Assembly: GCA_023299945.1 (NCBI GenBank)
Contig: JALZVZ010000271.1
Location: 1 to 14,176 of the forward strand
Source: Altererythrobacter sp.
GTDB taxonomy: Bacteria > Pseudomonadota > Alphaproteobacteria > Sphingomonadales > Sphingomonadaceae
Reading direction: 5' to 3'
Length of the DNA: 14,176 bases
This document shows, piece by piece, positions 1-14,094 of the stretch. The notes beneath the pieces are model-generated. The model was given only the letters and a program-made list of their open reading frames with translations, searched no databases and was not told the origin of the DNA. The translations under genes were made by a program, and so were the position numbers. The first letter of the stretch is position 1. Every line of letters starts with the position of its first letter.

Positions 1-598
1 CATAATCCGCCTTGGGATTATCGCCGATATGCAGAACATCAGCAGGGTTGCATTTCAACTTTTTAAGAACATGCGCAAGCATGCCTTCTGCTTTGGAAAT
101 TCCGATTTGCGAAGAGCAATAAATCTGCTCGATCAGATCGCGCACCTCTTGCCCTGCGGCCACTTTAATCAGCTCGCCCAATTGCGCAGCGCTTAGGTAA
201 GTGTCGGAGGCTATCACCACCGGAATGCCCTTGGCTTTGGCGGCCCGCATCAACGCCACCGTAGGCGCAAAGGCAAAACAGCAGCGCGCTTCTGCCTTCA
301 GCTCGCCATCCACAGCGCTCGCAAGGTCAGCAGGGCTGGCGCTGGGCATAGCGGCTGCATAAATCTGCTCAACAGTGACTTCATTCTTGCGCCGCAATGC
401 CCGCATGGATTTGCGAGCATTGGCCTCGCCCACAATACGCTGGCCGCGGCCTAGCCCTTCCAACGCATCAAAAACGCCGTCGGGCCGGTGGACATCGCGC
501 CATAGCAAAGTGTCAAAGCAATCGAGCGAAAGCACTTTGACTTGCGACGCCCGCTCGAGGGCAAGAGGTATTTCATGCGGAAGAATTGTATCGGTCAT
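1..598 (-). CDS. HAD-superfamily hydrolase, C-terminus cut off by window edge
   Basis: The frame opens at an ATG (598-596) and stays open to the left edge, giving about 199 residues without a stop. All four HAD motifs are visible: LDCFDTLLWR at residues 25-34 with the presumed nucleophile Asp26, a serine in VIASDTYLS, a lysine in ISKAEG, and GDNPKAD near the cut end. The DxFDT form of motif I, with Phe where classical phosphatases have the second Asp, resembles the 'FDxFDTLL' group of predicted HAD hydrolases rather than a textbook phosphatase. The substrate cannot be told. It lies 108 bp beyond motB on the same strand, so it may be read from the flagellar transcript or have its own control. 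The GGAG ribosome site sits at the foot of a 9-bp hairpin. The HAD family call is firm; any link to motility is inference. Confidence 0.85.
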   Translation of the reverse strand, partial: MTDTILPHEIPLALERASQVKVLSLDCFDTLLWRDVHRPDGVFDALEGLGRGQRIVGEANARKSMRALRRKNEVTVEQIYAAAMPSASPADLASAVDGELKAEARCCFAFAPTVALMRAAKAKGIPVVIASDTYLSAAQLGELIKVAAGQEVRDLIEQIYCSSQIGISKAEGMLAHVLKKLKCNPADVLHIGDNPKADY

Positions 599-607
599 GC
601 GCGCGTC

Positions 608-629
608 TCCATTGCAGTGTTGCAATGGA
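608..629. repeat. 9-bp perfect inverted repeat at the HAD gene ribosome-binding site
   Basis: TCCATTGCA and TGCAATGGA are separated by four bases (GTGT). On the minus strand the stem ends in GGA, part of the GGAG that lies about 8 nt before the HAD start codon, so the hairpin could mask the ribosome site or be a dyad operator. Neither strand has a T-tract after the stem, so an intrinsic terminator is unlikely. Confidence 0.6.
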
Positions 630-706: not shown

Positions 707-1558
707 CTATTGCAGCAGAATGGATATGCGGCGGTTGCGCGGATCGGCGGGATTATCAGGGATCAGCGGCTCGCGTTCGGCCACGCCTTCGATCCGGCTA
801 TAGCGACCGGTGCTCAGCCCCGATTGCATCAAAGCCTGACGCGTCGCTTCTGCTCGGCCAGTCGATAGCGACCAATTGTTCGCTTGGACCCCATCGCGCC
901 ATGGCAGGCTGTCAGTATGACCGCGGATCGCCAGCGTCACCGGTTTTTCAACCAGCGTTTCAGCCACAATCTCCAGCAGTTCGCGCGCCTGCGGAACCAG
1001 CACGGTCGTGCCCAATGCAAACATGGAGAAATCCGCATCATCGACCAGATCAATCCGCACGCCTTCAGGCACAGCCTCAACCTTGATTTGCTTAGCAAGC
1101 TTGCGAAGCTCGCTCTTCTTTTCAAGTTTTTCTTTGATTTCTTTTTCCAGCTTTTCCTTCAGCTCGCTGCGTTCCTTTCCCGCGGCCACGCCTTCCAGTG
1201 GGCCGCCTTTGGCGGCGCGCGGGATGGTGATGGATTTGTTGCCAGTTTGACCCTGGCGATTGGGCATATTATCAACGTCCGTGATCGAAGATCCGTTCAT
1301 AAAACCCTCGGAACCAGCCCCGCGTTCCTTGATTTTCACAAGCGTCGGTGTGAAATAATCAGCGAGGCCCTTGCGCTGATCCTCTGTGGTCGCGCCCAGC
1401 AGCCACATCAGTAGGAAAAACGCCATCATTGCCGTTACAAAATCGGCATAGGCAACCTTCCACGCGCCGCCATGATGGCCGCCGCCTTCTTGAACAATGA
1501 TCTTTTTGACGATGATCGGCTGAAGCGGTTCAGGGGCAGTAGGGGCAGCACTAGCCAT
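707..1558 (-). CDS. motB: Flagellar stator protein MotB
   Basis: This 283-residue protein has the MotB layout. A cytoplasmic N-terminus is followed by one membrane helix beginning AWKVAYADFVTAMMAFFLL, where Asp39 is the expected proton-carrying residue. A plug/linker region follows, and then an OmpA-type peptidoglycan-binding domain from about residue 180 to the end, with RGHTDS at 212 and NNWSLSTGRA characteristic of the family. The linker holds a strongly charged Lys/Glu-rich segment (about residues 133-160, KEKLEKEIKEKLEKKSE) likely to be helical. It works with MotA to couple ion flow to rotor torque while anchored to the cell wall. The start lies 4 bp after the motA stop, so the two are translationally close. 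This is the last gene of the flg-mot unit. Confidence 0.96.
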   Translation of the reverse strand: MASAAPTAPEPLQPIIVKKIIVQEGGGHHGGAWKVAYADFVTAMMAFFLLMWLLGATTEDQRKGLADYFTPTLVKIKERGAGSEGFMNGSSITDVDNMPNRQGQTGNKSITIPRAAKGGPLEGVAAGKERSELKEKLEKEIKEKLEKKSELRKLAKQIKVEAVPEGVRIDLVDDADFSMFALGTTVLVPQARELLEIVAETLVEKPVTLAIRGHTDSLPWRDGVQANNWSLSTGRAEATRQALMQSGLSTGRYSRIEGVAEREPLIPDNPADPRNRRISILLQ

Positions 1559-1562
1559 AGGT

Positions 1563-2426
1563 TTATGCCCCGCGCATCATATCAAGCAAATCGGTCAGCT
1601 TAGGCCGATGCGCAGGTGGCAGGCCAGAGCGCGCGGCTTCCAAAACCAATGGCTGCGGATAGCCGTGGAGCGAGGCAATAATGACCTGCTTGACCGAGTA
1701 ATAAATTTGCTGGTCATGCTTGTTTATCTGACCAAGGCGCCCGGCCATCGGGCCGACAAAACCATAGGCAAGCAAAACGCCCAAAAACGTTCCCACAAGT
1801 GCCGCACCAATCATCTTGCCGAGCACTGCTGGTGGCTGATCAATCGAGCCCATCGTCTTAATCACGCCCAAAACCGCCGCGACGATACCCAGAGCAGGCA
1901 GGCCATCGGCCAATGTCTGGATCGCATGGGCAGGCTCTTCCATTTCATGCAGTTGCGTTTTGATCGCGCTATCGATCACATCCTCGACCGCATTGGTGTC
2001 CAATGTACCGCTGGAGACAACCATCAAAGTCAGCGCATCACAGATCAAATCGCGCACTGGCGCATCGGCAAGCAGATTGGGATATTCAGCAAAAATGGCA
2101 GAGCTGTCGGGCTCTGTCACATGGCTTTCCAATGCAACAGCACCTTCTGAACGCATGATTTTCATCAGCTTACTGGTGAGGGCAATGGCATCAATATGGT
2201 CCTGATCGGAATAGACCGGCCCTTTAAAGACTTTGGCAAAGCCGCCGCCCAGCGCTTTTAGCTCGTGCATTGTATTGCCGATCACCAACGCGCCAATGGC
2301 AGCGCCGCCAATGATCATCATTTCCAGCGGCAATGCGGCCAAAACCGGCCCGAGCGAGCCGCCTGCAAGCACAAAACCGCCAAAAACCATGACGAGCAGA
2401 ATTACAATACCAATGGCAGCGAACAT
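1563..2426 (-). CDS. motA: Flagellar stator protein MotA
   Basis: This 287-residue protein is a proton-type MotA with four predicted membrane helices, two near the N-terminus and two around residues 173-226. Key positions of the E. coli protein are kept: Arg92 and Glu100 in the cytoplasmic loop (equivalent to R90 and E98), and Pro177 in DGLPALGIVAAVLG and Pro226 (equivalent to P173 and P222). The segment GTFLGVLLAYGFVGP is a family signature. The ATG has only a weak ribosome site, but an in-frame stop lies just upstream, so no earlier start is possible. It begins 39 bp after flgL and is followed at once by motB, which places the stator genes at the end of the hook-basal body operon. Confidence 0.97.
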   Translation of the reverse strand: MFAAIGIVILLVMVFGGFVLAGGSLGPVLAALPLEMMIIGGAAIGALVIGNTMHELKALGGGFAKVFKGPVYSDQDHIDAIALTSKLMKIMRSEGAVALESHVTEPDSSAIFAEYPNLLADAPVRDLICDALTLMVVSSGTLDTNAVEDVIDSAIKTQLHEMEEPAHAIQTLADGLPALGIVAAVLGVIKTMGSIDQPPAVLGKMIGAALVGTFLGVLLAYGFVGPMAGRLGQINKHDQQIYYSVKQVIIASLHGYPQPLVLEAARSGLPPAHRPKLTDLLDMMRGA

Positions 2427-3384: not shown

Positions 3385-4722
3385 TTAACGGATCCCCAAA
3401 ATTGTGTCGAAGATGTCATTGGCGACTTGAATAATCCGGCCAGAGGCTTGGAAGCTCTGCTGGAAACGGATCAAATTGGCCGCTTCTTGATCCAGATCGA
3501 CCCCGGTTGCACCAGCAAGGCTCGACTGTGCCGATTGCGCAATTGTCGCCAAAGCGTCCCTGGTCACCGAACGGCTGCGCACGGTACTGGACAATTCAAA
3601 CAGCATGCTATCGGCCTGCGAGGCGGGCCCGCCATTGGCGAGTGCGTTTCTAAGCGCGCCCAAATTAGAGGTATCCAGACTGCCTGCAGGAGCACCTGAT
3701 GGCGCTGTTGCAATGCCCGATCCATCGGTCAAACTAACGGTGATATCGCCCGCCCCACTGCCGGAAAAGAAGGGCTGACCCGCGCTGCCATCAGCGGCCG
3801 AACCGCTGGATTGCGCGGTGTTCAATGCTCCAATCGTAGAGGCGGCCACAGCGTCCAGATCGCTCAGCAATCCTGCCTGCGCCGTCAATGCGCTGGCTTG
3901 ACCTGCCAATTTGCCAGAGGAAAGCGTAACCGCGCTGCCATCCAGATCAAAGGACAAAGTGCCATCACCATTGGTCGTCGAAGATAAAGCCGCTGCGCTA
4001 GTGCCATTGACCAGCATTGGCCCGCTGGCATCGCCAAGCCGCACATTCGCCACGCCGCTTGGGCTGATGTCCGCGGTGACGCCCACTTGCTCCGATAGAT
4101 CACCCAGCAATTTGTCGCGCTGATCCAGCAGCACGGCATGGCTGGCAGTGCCTGCCTCTGAGCGGGTAAAGGCGACGTTGACGCTCGCCAGTTCGCCTGC
4201 AAGCCGGTTGACTTCATTGACGCTATTTTGCGCATCCAACCGCACGAAATCGCCGCCCTGTTTGAGCCCGCTGCTGGCAAGCTGAAACGTATTCGCCAAA
4301 CTCTCACCTTCCGCCAAAGCATTTGCGCGCAGTGACGGATTAAGCGGGTCGGATTGCAATTGCGCAAAGCTGGCTTCGAACTCCACCAAAGCGCCGTAGA
4401 GCCCGGATTGCTCCAATGTGGTTTCCGCCGAGCTTAACGCCGACAATTCCGCATCGGCCTGCGACAAAGATCCCGCGCTGCGCCGCGCCTCTGCGTTTAA
4501 AAGCGGCACATCAGGCCGGTAAATACCGCCCGTTCGCACGCCATTGAAAGTCGCGCCGGAAAACTCGCCAACCGCGCCTGCACCAGCCAATTCGGTCTGC
4601 CCCAAACGCCGGCGAACATAGCCCTCTGTCTGGGAATTGGCGATATTCTGCGCGGTCACCTCCAGAGCAGATCGCGCCGCTGTCGCGCCTGATTGGCCAA
4701 TATTAATGAGCGACATGGACAT
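3385..4722 (-). CDS. flgK: Hook-filament junction protein FlgK (HAP1)
   Basis: The 445-residue protein starts with SLINIGQSGATAARSALEV and NIANSQTEGYVRR, the N-terminal rod/hook-family helix and motif. It ends with a C-terminal helix containing NLIRFQQSFQASGRIIQVA, the FlgK signature. The middle is rich in Ala, Ser, Gly and Asp, as expected for the surface domains, and shorter than in Salmonella FlgK (about 550 residues). It caps the hook and forms the first junction zone to the filament. The start has a good GGAAGGA ribosome site about 8 nt away. An ATG two codons in (4716) is equally possible. It lies 3 bp after flgJ and 1 bp before flgL. Confidence 0.95.
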   Translation of the reverse strand: MSMSLINIGQSGATAARSALEVTAQNIANSQTEGYVRRRLGQTELAGAGAVGEFSGATFNGVRTGGIYRPDVPLLNAEARRSAGSLSQADAELSALSSAETTLEQSGLYGALVEFEASFAQLQSDPLNPSLRANALAEGESLANTFQLASSGLKQGGDFVRLDAQNSVNEVNRLAGELASVNVAFTRSEAGTASHAVLLDQRDKLLGDLSEQVGVTADISPSGVANVRLGDASGPMLVNGTSAAALSSTTNGDGTLSFDLDGSAVTLSSGKLAGQASALTAQAGLLSDLDAVAASTIGALNTAQSSGSAADGSAGQPFFSGSGAGDITVSLTDGSGIATAPSGAPAGSLDTSNLGALRNALANGGPASQADSMLFELSSTVRSRSVTRDALATIAQSAQSSLAGATGVDLDQEAANLIRFQQSFQASGRIIQVANDIFDTILGIR

Positions 4723-4725
4723 AAA

Positions 4726-5070
4726 TTATTCCTTCCGTGCGTCAGTGATTTGGGCGGTTTGCGCAGATGGCTCAGAGGACGGCAAATACGCCGCCAGCTG
4801 TTCCTCGATGGAACGGGCAAGGCCGAGACCACCTTTGTTTTGGCTGGAAATATCGGCGAAATGTTCATCACGCATAGCTTCGAACTGCTCGAGCCCTTGA
4901 CCTGAAAATATGTCATCCCCGCCAAAATCTGTGGCCCGCGCACTGGCGAGCAATTGGCGCAGGAAGATCGCCTCAAACGCTTGCGCGGCCTTGCGCAATT
5001 CTGCGCGTTCCGGCGTCAGAGCCTCGGCCGGTTTTGCAGCCTGTGTAGCGGGGTTGATCGCACCAATCAT
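4726..5070 (-). CDS. flgJ: Rod-binding protein FlgJ, scaffold domain only
   Basis: This 114-residue protein matches the N-terminal rod-binding half of FlgJ. The core at residues 29-92 includes QAFEAIFLRQLLASARAT and GQGLEQFEAMRDEHFAD, followed by GLGLARSIEEQL. The C-terminal peptidoglycan-hydrolase domain found in enteric FlgJ (about 310 residues) is absent. That is normal for alphaproteobacteria, where a separate muramidase is thought to open the wall for the rod. The start ATG overlaps the flgI stop by four bases (ATGA), indicating coupled translation. Product assignment rests on this motif pattern plus its position between flgI and flgK. Confidence 0.9.
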   Translation of the reverse strand: MIGAINPATQAAKPAEALTPERAELRKAAQAFEAIFLRQLLASARATDFGGDDIFSGQGLEQFEAMRDEHFADISSQNKGGLGLARSIEEQLAAYLPSSEPSAQTAQITDARKE

Positions 5071-6173
5071 AGGACAACCATTTCAGCTTGCAATGCGCCT
5101 GCTTGCTTCAGGCTTTCGAGGATCACCACCAGATCAGAGGCCCCTACGCCCAGCATGTTGAGTGCATCGACAATCTCATTGAGGGATGCAGCACTCGGCA
5201 TCAAAGCGACACGGCTGCTTTCTTGTTCCACTGTGATTTCGGAGGCTTCTTCGACGGCAGTGACACCATCTGAAAACGGTTCAGGCTGAACGATGCGCGG
5301 GCTTTCCGAAATGCTGATCGTCAGCTTTCCGTGGCTGATCGCAGCAGGCGACAGGCGCACCGCTTGATTGATCACCACCGTGCCCGTGCGGCTGTTAATG
5401 ATGACGCGCGCAGGCTGCGGCGCAGGCGTCACCGCCAGCATCTCAACAGTGGCGAGCATAGCGGCACGCGAATTCGGCATGCCGGGCAGATCGACTTCGA
5501 TGCTCACCCCGTCGATGACGCGGGAGGCGCCGGGATAAACATCATTGATTGCATCGCGTACGCGGGTCGCGGTGAGGAAATCAGACTGGTGCAAATTGAA
5601 GCGCAGCGAGGTGCCTTTTTCAAAGCCGCTCGCGACCGCGCGTTCCACCGATGCCCCATCAGGAATGCGGCCTACGGTGGCGATATTGACGGTTAGCTGC
5701 GAGCCATCGCGGCCCGATACGCCGAGACCGCCAACCGCAATATTGCCTTGCGCCATAGCGTAAATCTGGCCGTCGGCGCCGTATAGAGGCGTTAGAATCA
5801 GAGCCCCGCCGCGCAGGCTTTTCGCTTTGCCCATGGTGGACACAGTGATATCGATACGCTGGCCCGGTTTTGAAAAAGCAGGCAGATCAGCGGTGATAAT
5901 CACAGCCGCGGCATTCTTTAGACCAGGGGCAACGCCCGGCGGCAACTGCATGCCCAAACGGCCAGACACGCCCTTCATCGCCTCGGTCAAATATTCAAGA
6001 TTGTCATCGCCTGTGCCGGCTAAGCCAACCACCACGCCGTAGCCGGTCAATTGGTTGGTGCGCATCCCTTCGAACGACCCAATATCGCGCACGCGCTCAG
6101 CGGCGGCAGGCTGCGGCAAAGCCGAACCAAGCGCTGCCAATGCAGCGAGTAGAATTTTGGAGACCCAGTTCAT
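5067..6173 (-). CDS. flgI: Flagellar P-ring protein FlgI
   Basis: The 368-residue protein carries a Sec signal peptide (about residues 1-25, MNWVSKILLAALAALGSALP, then ending AAA before ERV). The conserved FlgI body follows: RDIGSFEGMRTNQLTGYGVV, GLAGTGDDN, and a C-terminal LNEIVDALNMLGVGASDLVV. It forms the periplasmic P-ring around the rod, a bushing assembled with the help of FlgA. The reading frame continues far upstream inside flgH, but the signal peptide fixes the start at the ATG 13 bp after the flgH stop, with a modest GGA about 9 nt before it. It overlaps flgJ by four bases at its end. Confidence 0.97.
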   Translation of the reverse strand: MNWVSKILLAALAALGSALPQPAAAERVRDIGSFEGMRTNQLTGYGVVVGLAGTGDDNLEYLTEAMKGVSGRLGMQLPPGVAPGLKNAAAVIITADLPAFSKPGQRIDITVSTMGKAKSLRGGALILTPLYGADGQIYAMAQGNIAVGGLGVSGRDGSQLTVNIATVGRIPDGASVERAVASGFEKGTSLRFNLHQSDFLTATRVRDAINDVYPGASRVIDGVSIEVDLPGMPNSRAAMLATVEMLAVTPAPQPARVIINSRTGTVVINQAVRLSPAAISHGKLTISISESPRIVQPEPFSDGVTAVEEASEITVEQESSRVALMPSAASLNEIVDALNMLGVGASDLVVILESLKQAGALQAEMVVL

Positions 6174-10148: not shown

Positions 10149-10496
10149 CTACTCACCCTTCAATGCGCGGGTGGCGGTTTGAACCTTGCTTTGGACAAAG
10201 GACAAGGTGGCGGAGTAAGCGACCGCGTTCTCGGCAAAGGCGATTTGTTCATTCGCCAGCTCGACCGTATTCCCGTCCATACTCGACATCGTCGGCACGC
10301 GGTAACGCGTGTGTTCGCCAATCGCCTCTGTGCCCGATTTCCCGGCCAGTCGATCATTCAGCGCAGCGGCAAAATCAATGTCGCGCGATTTATATCCAGG
10401 GGTCGCCGCATTGGCGATATTGCTGGTGAGCATCCCCATGCGCTGTGAGCGCAATTCAAGGGCTGCACCGTGTATGCCAAACAGATTCGTGTTCAA
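10149..10496 (-). CDS. flgB: Proximal rod protein FlgB, TTG start
   Basis: The 115-residue protein has the FlgB motif MLTSNIANAATPGYKSRDID at residues 22-41 and a C-terminal helix with SFVQSKVQTATRAL. It is the first gene of the flg operon and encodes a proximal-rod protein next to the MS ring. The start codon is TTG (10496-10494). No ATG gives a full motif, and a GGAG at 10507-10504 lies exactly 7 nt upstream. A sigma-54 promoter ends about 37 bp upstream of the start codon, leaving a leader of roughly 25 nt. The rare start may lower yield relative to downstream rod genes. Confidence 0.94.
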   Translation of the reverse strand: MNTNLFGIHGAALELRSQRMGMLTSNIANAATPGYKSRDIDFAAALNDRLAGKSGTEAIGEHTRYRVPTMSSMDGNTVELANEQIAFAENAVAYSATLSFVQSKVQTATRALKGE

Positions 10497-10497
10497 A

Positions 10498-10539
10498 GCA
10501 AAGCTCCGTTTCGTGATTGTGGGAACAGCTTTGCAAAGC
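10498..10539. repeat. GCAAAGC repeats, one copy forming a palindrome over the -12 box
   Basis: GCTTTGCAAAGC (10528-10539) is a perfect 12-bp palindrome that covers the -12 element of the flgB promoter. A further GCAAAGCT lies at 10498-10505 over the ribosome site, 35 bp from the promoter copy. It could be a repressor site, or simply the -12 box plus chance. Confidence 0.35.
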
Positions 10540-10547
10540 CCGTGCCA
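10533..10547 (-). promoter_or_regulatory. Sigma-54 (-24/-12) promoter of flgB operon
   Basis: Read on the minus strand the sequence is TGGCACGGGCTTTGC, a perfect match to the sigma-54 core TGGCACG-N4-TTGC, followed by A as in the extended consensus. The GG and GC pairs are 10 bp apart as required. Transcription would start near 10522, giving a leader of about 25 nt before the flgB TTG. Sigma-54 promoters need an enhancer-bound activator; candidate sites lie upstream at 10580-10639. Confidence 0.92.
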
Positions 10548-10653: not shown

Positions 10654-10699
10654 CAGTGGGCCCACTGCCGCGCGCTAGTCAGGGGTTAAACTGGGCCCA
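10654..10699. promoter_or_regulatory. Palindrome CAGTGGGCCCACTG plus second TGGGCCCA core
   Basis: A perfect 14-bp palindrome occupies 10654-10667, and its central TGGGCCCA recurs at 10692-10699, 35 bp away. Both lie between the enhancer candidates and the start of the divergent stator-like operon. They look like paired operator sites for a dimeric regulator of that operon. No regulator is identified. Confidence 0.45.
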
Positions 10700-10720
10700 A
10701 GTCGCCCGTTCTAAAGTGTT

Positions 10721-10799: not shown

Positions 10800-11519
10800 A
10801 TGTTCGAACCAGCACAGTTAATCGATCCGGTTGCAGCGGCCATTGTTATTGGCGGCAGCATCTTGGCGACATCGGCCCGCTGCGGCTTTGGCCACACCCG
10901 CGATGCCGCAATGCAAGTTTTAAAACTGCCCACCCCTTCGTTCAAATATGAGCGTGTGCGAGCCTCTTTGGCTCCGATGGTAAGCGACATTAAACGCAGC
11001 GGTTTGATCCGCGCAAAGATTGTCAAATCACCGGATCGCGCGATCAATGAAGGGCTGGAGGCGATGCTACGCCGCCGCAGTTTCACCGCCTTTCTCGCCC
11101 ATCAACAAAGCCACCGCGAATTGCGATTGGCAAGCCGATTCCGGGCTAGCGAAAGTTTGGACACCGCGGGCGAGCTTGCCCCGATCCTTGGTTTGACCGG
11201 CACATTGATTGCCCTGAGCCAACTTGAGCCTGATCAATTAGCGGATGCCTCTGCCATGATTTCGGTCATCTCAACCGCGATCCTCTCGACGCTCTATGGT
11301 TTGCTGCTGGCGCATTTTATCTGTCACCCGCTGGCCCGCGCAATTGAGCGGCGCGGCGCACGCGAGGAGGAGGCGCGTGCGGCTCTGACCGATTGGCTGG
11401 CGGATCATATTCCACACAGTGACGCCGAGAACAATGGGACGGAAAAATCCGCAAAATCCGCTACTGCAAATTGGGCGCTAGAACCCCGCCCGATTGGATC
11501 AGGCAGGCATGCGGCATGA
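10800..11519 (+). CDS. MotA/TolQ/ExbB-family membrane protein, three-helix short form
   Basis: The 239-residue protein has predicted membrane helices at about residues 8-27, 124-141 and 150-175. IDPVAAAIVIGGSILATSA resembles the second helix of PomA-type MotA. GELAPILGLTGTLIALSQL matches the third, with Pro128 in place of the conserved MotA proline, and STAILSTLYGLLLAHF matches the fourth. The first MotA helix is missing. The loop between is basic and the C-terminal tail of about 60 residues is hydrophilic. It would form the ring of an ion channel around a B subunit, presumably the next gene, which it overlaps by four bases. GTGAGG lies 4 nt before the ATG. A role in flagellar rotation, ring loading or an unrelated energised process cannot be told from sequence. 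Confidence 0.82.
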   Translation: MFEPAQLIDPVAAAIVIGGSILATSARCGFGHTRDAAMQVLKLPTPSFKYERVRASLAPMVSDIKRSGLIRAKIVKSPDRAINEGLEAMLRRRSFTAFLAHQQSHRELRLASRFRASESLDTAGELAPILGLTGTLIALSQLEPDQLADASAMISVISTAILSTLYGLLLAHFICHPLARAIERRGAREEEARAALTDWLADHIPHSDAENNGTEKSAKSATANWALEPRPIGSGRHAA

Positions 11520-11938
11520 GCAATTCGCCAACCGGAAAATGGGAAATTTTGCTAGCTGATCTAGCACTGATCCTGTTTATTGTTGCGCTGGGCGGGCTGG
11601 TCACAATGCCAATCAAAGCCAAGCCCGCAAGCGCGAGCGAGGCTGCATCAAAAGCCAAGTCAGAACAGCTCGCCATCGCTCCCAGTCAGGCGCTCTATCG
11701 CACGGTACAAAACGGGCCGACATTGGGCGAATGGCTAAAAAGGCAGCCACTCGATCCGCGCGCGACCCTGACAATTTTTGTCGATTACCGGGCCGATGAT
11801 GCGGCACGCGGTCTAGAGCAGGCAGCGGCCATGATCGGCGAGGCGCAAGGCGCCGGAGTGCGAGTGCGCACCGTCATGCGCGATGCGGAGCAGGCGGATA
11901 TATATGCTAGCCTTGCCTTTGATGCGGGCGGAACCTGA
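11516..11938 (+). CDS. Small MotB/ExbD-like membrane protein without OmpA domain
   Basis: The 140-residue protein has one membrane helix at about residues 11-31, beginning WEILLADLALILFIVAL. Trp9 and Asp15 have the same spacing as Trp33 and Asp39 in the MotB of this window, and Asp15 would be the ion-carrying residue. The rest is periplasmic: an Ala/Ser/Lys linker (about 35-55), then a compact domain (about 68-125) with LTIFVDYRAD and EAQGAGVRVRTVM. This resembles the beta-alpha-beta end of ExbD/TolR rather than the OmpA peptidoglycan-binding fold, whose motifs are absent. The ATG overlaps the upstream stop (ATGA), so the two are translationally coupled. The reading frame extends back to 11471 but that would overlap the upstream gene heavily. 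The family assignment is inferred from the helix pattern and gene pairing. Confidence 0.72.
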   Translation: MSNSPTGKWEILLADLALILFIVALGGLVTMPIKAKPASASEAASKAKSEQLAIAPSQALYRTVQNGPTLGEWLKRQPLDPRATLTIFVDYRADDAARGLEQAAAMIGEAQGAGVRVRTVMRDAEQADIYASLAFDAGGT

Positions 11939-11955: not shown

Positions 11956-13158
11956 CTAAGCGGTTTCAACCCGATTGCGGCCCGCCTCTTTGGCCCGGTA
12001 CAATGCCTCATCTGCGGCGGCCAAAGCCGCGCGCGGATTATCAAATTGGTTGACCTGTGCAACTCCGGCAGAAAATGTAATCTGGCCGTAAGGTTGACCG
12101 GTCTCCCGGTTCATTAAACGTCTTCGCGCCAGTTTCAGGCGAGCATCATCAATCGCCTGAAACGCCTGATCCTTATCCATGGCTGAAAACAAAAGGACAA
12201 ACTCCTCGCCGCCATGACGCGCAACAAAACAGCCATCACCGGCAACGTCAGACAATGCCTTGGAAATAGCCTGCAACACGCGGTCACCGGCACTGTGGCC
12301 GTGCACATCATTGACCAATTTGAAATGATCAATGTCGCAAAACGCCAGCGCCAAAGTGCCCCCATTTGCCTTTATCTTTTCAACTTCTACCTTTAAATTG
12401 CGTTCAAAAGCGCGGCGATTGGGAAGGCCTGTCAGATGATCTACATCCGCTTCTTGGCGCGCCTTTTCCAGGCTTTGCCGCAAACCTTCCGCCTCGCGCT
12501 GATTGCGCTCCATCTCTGCTTCAATCGCTTTGAGTTGGGCAAGCATGGTGCGCGATAGGTCGAGCAGGTTTTGAAACCTCGCCACGCCTTCTGAAACTTG
12601 CCCGTTTGCGCCAAGCTGGCTTTTGGATGGCCCACTTGCATTCGCGTGCGGCTGATCCAAATGCTCGCTCATGGCGCTGCGATATGCGCCGGTCGCCTCG
12701 CGCGCGCTTTGGGTGTTATCTTGAAGATTGTTCATGGCATTTTCCATCAGATCCATCATTTCCTGCATCTGATTGGCGCGCTCTTGCACTTTTGCATGCG
12801 CAGCAGAGGCGCAGGGCCGCAGAGAATCGAGCCACGCCTGATCGATCCGGCCAGATCCTAGTTCGCGCTTTGCCAATGCGCTCCGCAGCCGCGCATCTGT
12901 GCCCGATAGACCGTCACAAACCAAAGCAAGGTTGGCCGCGGTTATTCGCAATTCGTGCCGCACCATAAATTCTCCAACACGGTCCATGAGGTCCCTTTGT
13001 GCCTCCATAGCGACTGATGTTGAGGCAGGTGCCGATTGGCCCTGTTTCCTATCATCGCGCGGCAAAGATTGACTGGCCGCATCGCGCCACCGGCCCGGCT
13101 GCACGAACGCTGTTTTGTCAGAGCCATTGTCTTTTTTCTGATCTTTACCGGTAAACAC
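11956..13158 (-). CDS. Soluble GGDEF diguanylate cyclase
   Basis: The C-terminal 165 residues form a complete GGDEF domain: DVDHLTGLPNRRAFERNL, FCDIDHFKLVNDVHGHSAGD with the metal-binding Asp, and an intact RHGGEEF at about residue 316-320, so it should make c-di-GMP from two GTP. The RxxD inhibitory site usually five residues before GGEEF is absent. No membrane segment is visible. The N-terminal region (about 55-115) has FMVRHELRITAANLAL, a conserved-looking helical module I cannot name, and is followed by two coiled-coil stretches. I chose the GTG at 13158 because GAGGAG (13174-13169) lies 10 nt upstream. The frame also opens with a TTG at 13176 that has no ribosome site. It converges on the stator-like pair with a 17-bp gap and diverges from flgA. 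Confidence 0.9.
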   Translation of the reverse strand: MFTGKDQKKDNGSDKTAFVQPGRWRDAASQSLPRDDRKQGQSAPASTSVAMEAQRDLMDRVGEFMVRHELRITAANLALVCDGLSGTDARLRSALAKRELGSGRIDQAWLDSLRPCASAAHAKVQERANQMQEMMDLMENAMNNLQDNTQSAREATGAYRSAMSEHLDQPHANASGPSKSQLGANGQVSEGVARFQNLLDLSRTMLAQLKAIEAEMERNQREAEGLRQSLEKARQEADVDHLTGLPNRRAFERNLKVEVEKIKANGGTLALAFCDIDHFKLVNDVHGHSAGDRVLQAISKALSDVAGDGCFVARHGGEEFVLLFSAMDKDQAFQAIDDARLKLARRRLMNRETGQPYGQITFSAGVAQVNQFDNPRAALAAADEALYRAKEAGRNRVETA

Positions 13159-13457
13159 GGGCGTCTTGCTCCTCAATCTGAGCGCCGCAGCTGGGGTAGT
13201 GATGGAGAGTATCCAGCGCTCGCGATGTTTGTGGTCTTAGACTGGCTTCAATACCGCCCAGCGAAAACGGACCTCGTGGAAACCACCTATCGAGCTGCCA
13301 AAGCATGGCCGCAGTCGGTGCTGCGCCGTTCTTGCAGCCTACCGCAGCGATGGAGCTTATGGTTCTGAAAGTTACAGCTGCAACTGGCATGGCTCTTGCT
13401 CAAAGATCCTCAAACACGAGCCACAATTACCGCCTTCAAAGGGCCAGGAGAATAACA
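13159..13457. other. Divergent intergenic region, cyclase to flgA
   Basis: This gap of about 300 bp carries the sigma-54 promoter of flgA near its right end. Frames that run through it lack ribosome sites and I see no gene. No CGGCAAA-type enhancer site or obvious promoter for the cyclase is visible. Confidence 0.6.
13385..13400 (+). promoter_or_regulatory. Sigma-54 promoter of flgA
   Basis: TGGCATGGCTCTTGCT matches TGGCACG-N4-TTGCT with one difference (C to T in the first box) and correct 10-bp spacing between GG and GC. The expected start is near 13411, leaving a leader of about 47 nt before flgA. It links flgA to the same sigma factor as the flgB operon. Confidence 0.8.
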
Positions 13458-14009
13458 ATGGCACCGATTACTTCACTTCAAAAAACGCGCGCTGTTCGGC
13501 GCAAATATGCCGGATATTTCGCAGCGGCGGTAATGCTTGTTGCGCCCAATTGGGTCAGCACAGCGCACGCTCAACCGCGCTTCATCGATCCAGTTCAAAT
13601 CGACCGCTCGGTCGAGAATTTTACCGGCCAGCCCGCCGGTTCCATCGGCGGCGCGCGCAGCCCTGCAGACCCGCGGCTGAGGCTGGCTTTATGCGGCAAT
13701 CCGCTCAATGTGACATGGCATGGCAATTTGAAAAACACTGTGAGAGTGGCCTGCGAGGGGCGCTCGCCTTGGCACATTTTTATGGCTGTTCGGGCCGCGC
13801 CCAAATCGGTGAAAGCGGCAAAGATCATCCAACGCGGGGACAGCGTCACTATCGCAGTGGAGGGCCGCGGCTTTACCGTGCGCCGTCCCGGCGAAGCGCA
13901 GCAGGCAGGTGCGATTGGCGATTGGATTGCGGTTAAAACCAGCCGCAAGGCCAAGCCTGTGAACGCCAAAATTGTTCGCCCCGGATTGGTCGTCATTCCG
14001 CTTTCGTGA
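13458..14009 (+). CDS. flgA: P-ring assembly chaperone FlgA
   Basis: The 183-residue protein has a Sec signal peptide (cleavage expected after STAHA at about residue 38). The FlgA features follow: DPRLRLALC with Cys79 and a second Cys99 that could form a disulfide, and a C-terminal SAF-type segment with IIQRGDSVTIAVEGRGFTVR and GAIGDWIAVKTSRK. It is a periplasmic chaperone for FlgI polymerisation. The reading frame runs further upstream, but AGGAG at 13446-13450 lies 7 nt before this ATG and the signal peptide starts here. At about 145 mature residues it is shorter than enteric FlgA (about 200). It is on the opposite strand from flgI and has its own sigma-54 promoter. Confidence 0.93.
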   Translation: MAPITSLQKTRAVRRKYAGYFAAAVMLVAPNWVSTAHAQPRFIDPVQIDRSVENFTGQPAGSIGGARSPADPRLRLALCGNPLNVTWHGNLKNTVRVACEGRSPWHIFMAVRAAPKSVKAAKIIQRGDSVTIAVEGRGFTVRRPGEAQQAGAIGDWIAVKTSRKAKPVNAKIVRPGLVVIPLS

Positions 14010-14094
14010 AATCTTTCGAATTAAATTTAAGCCTGCACTTAAAGATGATCGTATTGGGTCGTTCTGTTGGCTGAGAAGGTAAAGGAACCGGACA

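Follow-up and report, generated by a model that had tools for sequence, protein, structure and literature searches.

Ancestry and architecture of the A-B pair

Flagellar stators are described in PMC12505986 as having a single origin, an ion transporter that acquired a four-transmembrane (four-TM) fold together with a plug and an anchor of OmpA type. The stator traits given there are a square four-TM fold, a torque interface of at least four helices, an unbroken TM3, a plug with a linker, an OmpA-like domain and an Asp in the B subunit. Here we examine two adjoining genes, A and B, located between flgB and flgA in a contig of Altererythrobacter sp. (JALZVZ010000271.1, assembly GCA_023299945.1) that was analysed over its whole stretch of 14,176 nucleotides (the window; Table 1). 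Our favoured, though tentative, explanation is that A-B is an extra flagellar stator unit remodelled into an unanchored, ExbBD-like proton-driven unit that modulates the MotA/MotB motor. The computational analysis supports the stator ancestry of the pair, the loss of TM1 from A, the losses in B, intact channel residues and a late promoter motif, together with a fixed place between flgB and flgA and presence alongside the flagellum in the genus.

An earlier interpretation made from the letters of the window (the sequence-only reading) had described two translationally coupled genes at 10800..11938, encoding an ExbB/MotA-like and an ExbD/MotB-like protein, in a cluster that already contains a complete MotA/MotB pair. 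Both genes were found there with an ATGA overlap, and the resident pair is complete, with TIGR03818, MotB_plug and OmpA matches over their cut-offs. A phylogenetic tree, whose outgroup comprised only two TolQ/ExbB-like rows, placed A in a clade (94/87) on the flagellar stator side. The profile comparison also set A with the stators and not with ExbB/TolQ, and PomA was the best match of A in both profile and fold; A matched Pfam MotA_ExbB (PF01618) with an E value of 4.2e-11, above the curated cut-off. The earlier interpretation is partly supported. Tree, profile and fold uphold a MotA/PomA stator lineage for A, and not a grouping with ExbB/TolQ. An ExbB/ExbD or TolQ/TolR identity is ruled out by the tree, the profile comparison and the genome's own TolQ/TolR-like pair. 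Besides the window, the same genome has two PF01618 loci, one in which a MotA_ExbB gene precedes an ExbD/TolR gene and a TolA-like frame (the latter read by eye) and one that is ExbB-like by eye. A recent copy of the resident motA is likewise ruled out, since the resident MotA is of the MotA1 type and the A and MotA1 rows form separate clades. Zorya ZorAB belongs with A-B to the same wide superfamily of 5:2 motors; no match to the ZorA or ZorB families of PADLOC was obtained at E values up to 1, and a Zorya identity was rejected.

The alignment of A with PomA/MotA begins at TM2 and runs onward. Because the open frame containing A is only 241 residues long, no TM1 is hidden upstream, which rules out a mis-called start concealing it. 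The A protein of the window has three TM helices and no TM1; the counts come from a plain hydropathy rule that gave two or four instead of three in 8 of 16 derived A rows. In the predicted structure, which shows the MotA/ExbB-type fold that the sequence-only reading had anticipated and specifically a stator-type one, TM3 forms a single continuous helix (residues 95-140, block predicted local distance difference test (pLDDT) 95-98). The Pro and Thr residues of the channel are kept, and all are invariant.

The cytoplasmic part of A has stator length (helices 30-41, 50-67, 80-92 and the start of 95-140). This would suit a rotor brake or slot competitor, in which A docks to FliG through its retained cytoplasmic loop and the unit, having neither TM1 nor plug nor wall anchor, occupies stator places without producing torque, perhaps under the control of the neighbouring diguanylate cyclase. 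In 23 of the 24 genus loci L025-L048, a GGDEF gene indeed adjoins B on the flgA side; it stands outside the pair proper, yet is conserved beside it in the genus. However, derived A proteins have lost the V-D-G stretch and the Lys after TM4 that are conserved in other MotA proteins, the GGDEF gene occupies this place in only a few annotated loci outside the genus (L080, L083 and L118), and a pure plug-in brake needs no full invariance of the channel residues. We consider such a brake doubtful, although it ranks next after the favoured explanation.

B gave no match to Pfam or NCBIfam at E values up to 1 and, searched alone, no convincing match among PDB sequences. Its model consists of one TM helix (residues 6-30) carrying Asp15, a disordered linker and a small periplasmic domain (about 59-135). 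Asp15 is invariant across the rows of 79 relatives, and the linker (31-58) is modelled without secondary structure, residues 37-48 falling below pLDDT 50. By profile search and comparison, no OmpA-like peptidoglycan-binding motif or domain was found in derived B, and the model contains no plug. In contrast, the B proteins of basal relatives retain MotB_plug and/or OmpA matches, with MotB_plug in 9 of 10. These comparisons support the view that the derived clade lost the peptidoglycan motif of MotB and apparently the plug too. They also bear on whether A-B might be an ordinary second torque-generating stator, like those named MotCD or LafTU. The stator lineage and fold of A and the matches kept by basal B proteins speak for this, but a derived B with neither OmpA motif nor modelled plug, joined to an A without TM1, makes it quite improbable for the window; it is more plausible for the basal relatives.

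Compared with the stator traits in PMC12505986, A-B has the lineage, an unbroken TM3 and the conserved TM Asp of B, and it lacks the four-TM fold and the OmpA domain. The apt term for it is stator derivative, not stator. In the classes of that paper, the closest systems are PomAB/MotAB stators of the TGI4 kind. A-B shares with PomAB/MotAB a stator-side A by tree, profile and fold, the long unbroken TM3, the channel Pro/Thr, the Asp of B, the order of A upstream of B in one operon and a flagellar locus. Unlike them, its A is without TM1 and its derived B without OmpA motif or visible plug, and it coexists with a full MotA/MotB pair and sits between flgB and flgA. With ExbBD/TolQR it has in common a three-TM A subunit, a short B subunit and the same topology. 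It differs from them in its lineage, in a TM3 modelled as unbroken against the criterion of a broken one, and in its surroundings: as the sequence-only reading had noted, no TonB or Tol gene, TolA included, was recognised in the window, and the genome has a separate TolQ/TolR-like pair. Among the literature matches listed, we found no description of the A-B pair, in agreement with the earlier impression that no system of this shape had been described; a report in subscription journals is possible.

Conservation, distribution and gene order

The pair is tied to a fixed place. A search of genome contigs with A alone returned nothing, while an alignment (A5) retrieved 196 relatives. The gene-order survey suggested by the sequence-only reading found the pair in relatives' flagellar loci: flgB-A-B occurred in each of the 61 relatives' loci that show flgB, a set picked by matches to A or B, and in 80/80 named loci, with flgA behind B in 79/80. 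The named loci are the best 80 of the 196 relatives and come mostly from Novosphingobium, Erythrobacteraceae and unclassified Sphingomonadales. Some related B proteins carry names that indicate Erythrobacter. A 4-base overlap, with the B start lying 3 bases ahead of the final base of the A stop codon, was present in 57 of these 80. Compared across the genus, A and B change more quickly than the genes around them, with median identities of 48% for A and 49% for B against 82% for MotA, 77% for FlgB and 60% for FlgA. The ratio of nonsynonymous to synonymous substitution rates (dN/dS) was 0.40 for A and 0.37 for B, and every pair with unsaturated dS (158 for A, 125 for B) stayed below 1, which rules out a pseudogene or chance frame. 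The substitution pattern indicates that both are working, fast-changing genes, and this ratio of about 0.4, with the recurrence of flgB-A-B, marks the locus as more than chance.

The genus sample of 114 genomes gave MotA over the TIGR03818 cut-off in 71 and a match to A in 73. Both the A-B pair and MotA were present in 70, neither in 41, and three were discordant; the pair therefore follows the flagellum. Two of the discordant genomes (G074 and G096) have A-B and FlgB without MotA over the cut-off. The third (G079) has MotA, no A-B pair and no FlgB match, its A match (E = 5e-4) not being an orthologue; it retains motA and motB (L111), and its flagellum is apparently being lost.

Across the family, the B profile matched 75/397 genomes in 25 of 96 genera, a lower bound because this profile misses most of the basal B type. 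MotA1 was over the cut-off in 246/397. Among 20 MotA-bearing genomes missed by the B profile, flgB lay near motA in 13; in eight of these 13, the interval from flgB to flgA holds an A-like gene followed by a MotB-like gene, and five have none. In one pair-less flagellated relative (L131, genome G375), genes for an LPP20 lipoprotein and FlgT_N lie between flgB and flgA (about 4470-5944, minus strand). FlgT_N was found in 2/5 pair-less and 0/30 pair-bearing genomes, too few to keep FlgT as a replacement of the pair, and this idea was set aside.

Outside the family, a sparse test did not reveal the pair. The B profile matched 81/396 genomes of an order sample, each of them assigned to this family, although the number of other families that the sample included is not shown. 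Another 24 genomes of the same order but of other families gave weak A matches only, with MotA-sized frames (255-293 residues) in 21. A class search matched 218/385 genomes, and 32 places were fetched. One is a family member with the pair (L189). In the other 31 the matched gene sits in a different kind of setting: flgB was found by profiles only at L171, where the A-like gene does not adjoin it, and the rest showed neither flgB nor flgA. Plasmids searched with a B of the Novosphingobium type yielded a single partial match (21% of the query), beneath which the record names a hypothetical protein and a MotA/TolQ/ExbB protein.

Promoter motifs and timing

A sigma54 site toward flgB was found in 67/67 intergenic regions of relatives, compared with 4.8 expected. 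A general sigma54 promoter for A is unsupported (10/67 loci, 4.9 expected from shuffles). Instead, A is preceded by a CTTAA-N16-CCGTTCT motif with the spacing of the FliA (sigma28) promoter consensus. As the motif was derived from A upstream regions, its presence there is not independent evidence, and the evidence from the genome search is confined to exact sites. Exact copies numbered 17 in eight genomes; seven precede A, and the other ten precede genes for FlgM (6), FliD (3) and flagellin (1), all over their Pfam cut-offs. Weighing against the motif, its form with up to one mismatch was rarer than a reversed control (the pattern read backwards) in 8/8 genomes, so single mismatched sites, including the window's own, carry little weight alone. 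At the end of the window, the flgM-like start behind the site was read by eye, and Pfam FlgM lies behind the matching sites of six relatives.

Among loci with an assigned start, the relaxed motif occurred within 220 bases of A in 24/26 genus loci, 26/31 other derived loci and 71/80 named loci (shuffled expectations 0.03, 0.02 and 0.11, respectively), and in 0/10 basal loci; over the whole flgB-A gap it was found in 1/10 basal loci (L128). Automatic start choice failed or erred at L025, L081, L114, L118 and L127, with A in two pieces at L081 and L127; in genome G025 the site lies 62 bases before A. Being present in derived and nearly absent from basal loci, the late promoter would have appeared in about the same clade as the loss of the OmpA match. 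These upstream sequences suggest that A-B is expressed together with late flagellar genes. In three basal loci (L105, L106 and L133), a sigma54-like site that agrees at 11/12 positions lies 28-64 bases ahead of A, in contrast to the sigma28-like site of the derived clade, which points to a possible promoter switch. Inverted repeats CGGCAAG...CTTGCCG, perhaps activator sites, recur between flgB and A in many loci; the palindrome CGGCAA-TTGCCG had no exact match in the window and was rejected as an enhancer site there.

The timing bears on two further explanations. Adjoining flgB, the first rod gene, A-B could serve as a small unit that energises flagellar export or assembly of the rod, as the sequence-only reading had proposed alongside motor modulation. 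In the flagellar hierarchy, sigma28 genes are expressed after hook completion, and a sigma28-like motif common to flgM, fliD and flagellin would place A-B there; moreover, some flagellated relatives do without the pair. Such an early role is unlikely, to a degree that makes it the least credible reading considered here, and of the earlier proposals it is motor modulation that we favour. A-B could also merely share the locus and energise envelope or secretion functions, like SiiAB of Salmonella SPI4, which serves a type I secretion system. Within the genus, however, A-B goes with the flagellum; it no longer has the peptidoglycan motif and is preceded by a late flagellar motif. No secretion genes, type I included, were recognised in the window, the whole genome not having been searched for type I genes. 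We regard this possibility as improbable.

Proposed mechanism and surrounding locus

In the favoured modulation of the MotA/MotB motor, a stator unit of MotA/PomA and MotB lineage would have been remodelled in the Sphingomonadaceae-type family and dedicated to the flagellum. A and B would form a five-to-two ring conducting protons past Asp15 of B and Thr135 and Thr164 of A; without plug and wall anchor, it would not push FliG as a normal stator does. Made after the hook, the unit may turn the small conserved periplasmic domain of B against a putative partner located at, or close to, the completed basal body, and stator recruitment, load or stopping of the motor would be modulated as a result. 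Somewhat more tentatively, we suggest that a stator turned back into an ExbBD-like unit, losing TM1, then plug and wall anchor, gaining a late promoter and keeping its proton channel; in much of the family it would be a second ion-driven flagellar machine, with a periplasmic portion of the motor and not FliG as its target. Relatives at this one locus run opposite to the order in PMC12505986, from a pair of stator type that carries plug and OmpA-like domain to a pair lacking them. The series allows testing of which components are essential to a stator, and a whole bacterial group gains an unrecognised flagellar component.

Table 1. Positions of the A-B pair and other features in the window.
Feature	Coordinates	Strand	Match
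Gene A, TM1-less MotA/PomA-type channel subunit, 239 residues	10800..11519	+	
Gene B, MotB-type axle subunit, 140 residues	11516..11938	+	
ATGA shared by the A stop and the B start (translational coupling)	11516..11519	+	
Sigma28 (FliA)-like promoter of A-B, differing from CTTAA-N16-CCGTTCT at one position	10685..10712	+	
Sigma54 -24/-12 promoter toward flgB, TGGCACG-N4-TTGCA, 12/12 consensus positions	10532..10547	-	
flgB, heading the divergent flg operon	10149..10496	-	TIGR01396 over cut-off
Resident motA, MotA1/E. coli type	1563..2426	-	TIGR03818, E 4.6e-97, over cut-off
Resident motB with plug and OmpA domain	707..1558	-	PF13677 (MotB_plug) and PF00691 (OmpA) over cut-off
HAD-family hydrolase just past motB, cut by window end	2-625	-	PF00702
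GGDEF diguanylate cyclase gene, convergent to B, between B and flgA	11956..13176	-	PF00990, E 1.2e-39
flgA, start uncertain	13305..14009	+	PF13144, E 3.1e-11
Sigma28-like site before flgM-like start (by eye) at window end, one mismatch	14038..14065	+	

A and B are transcribed away from flgB and toward flgA, and Pfam and NCBIfam profiles place the complete motA and motB after the flg operon. The GGDEF protein bears a GGEEF motif and might act on the A-B pair or on the motor.
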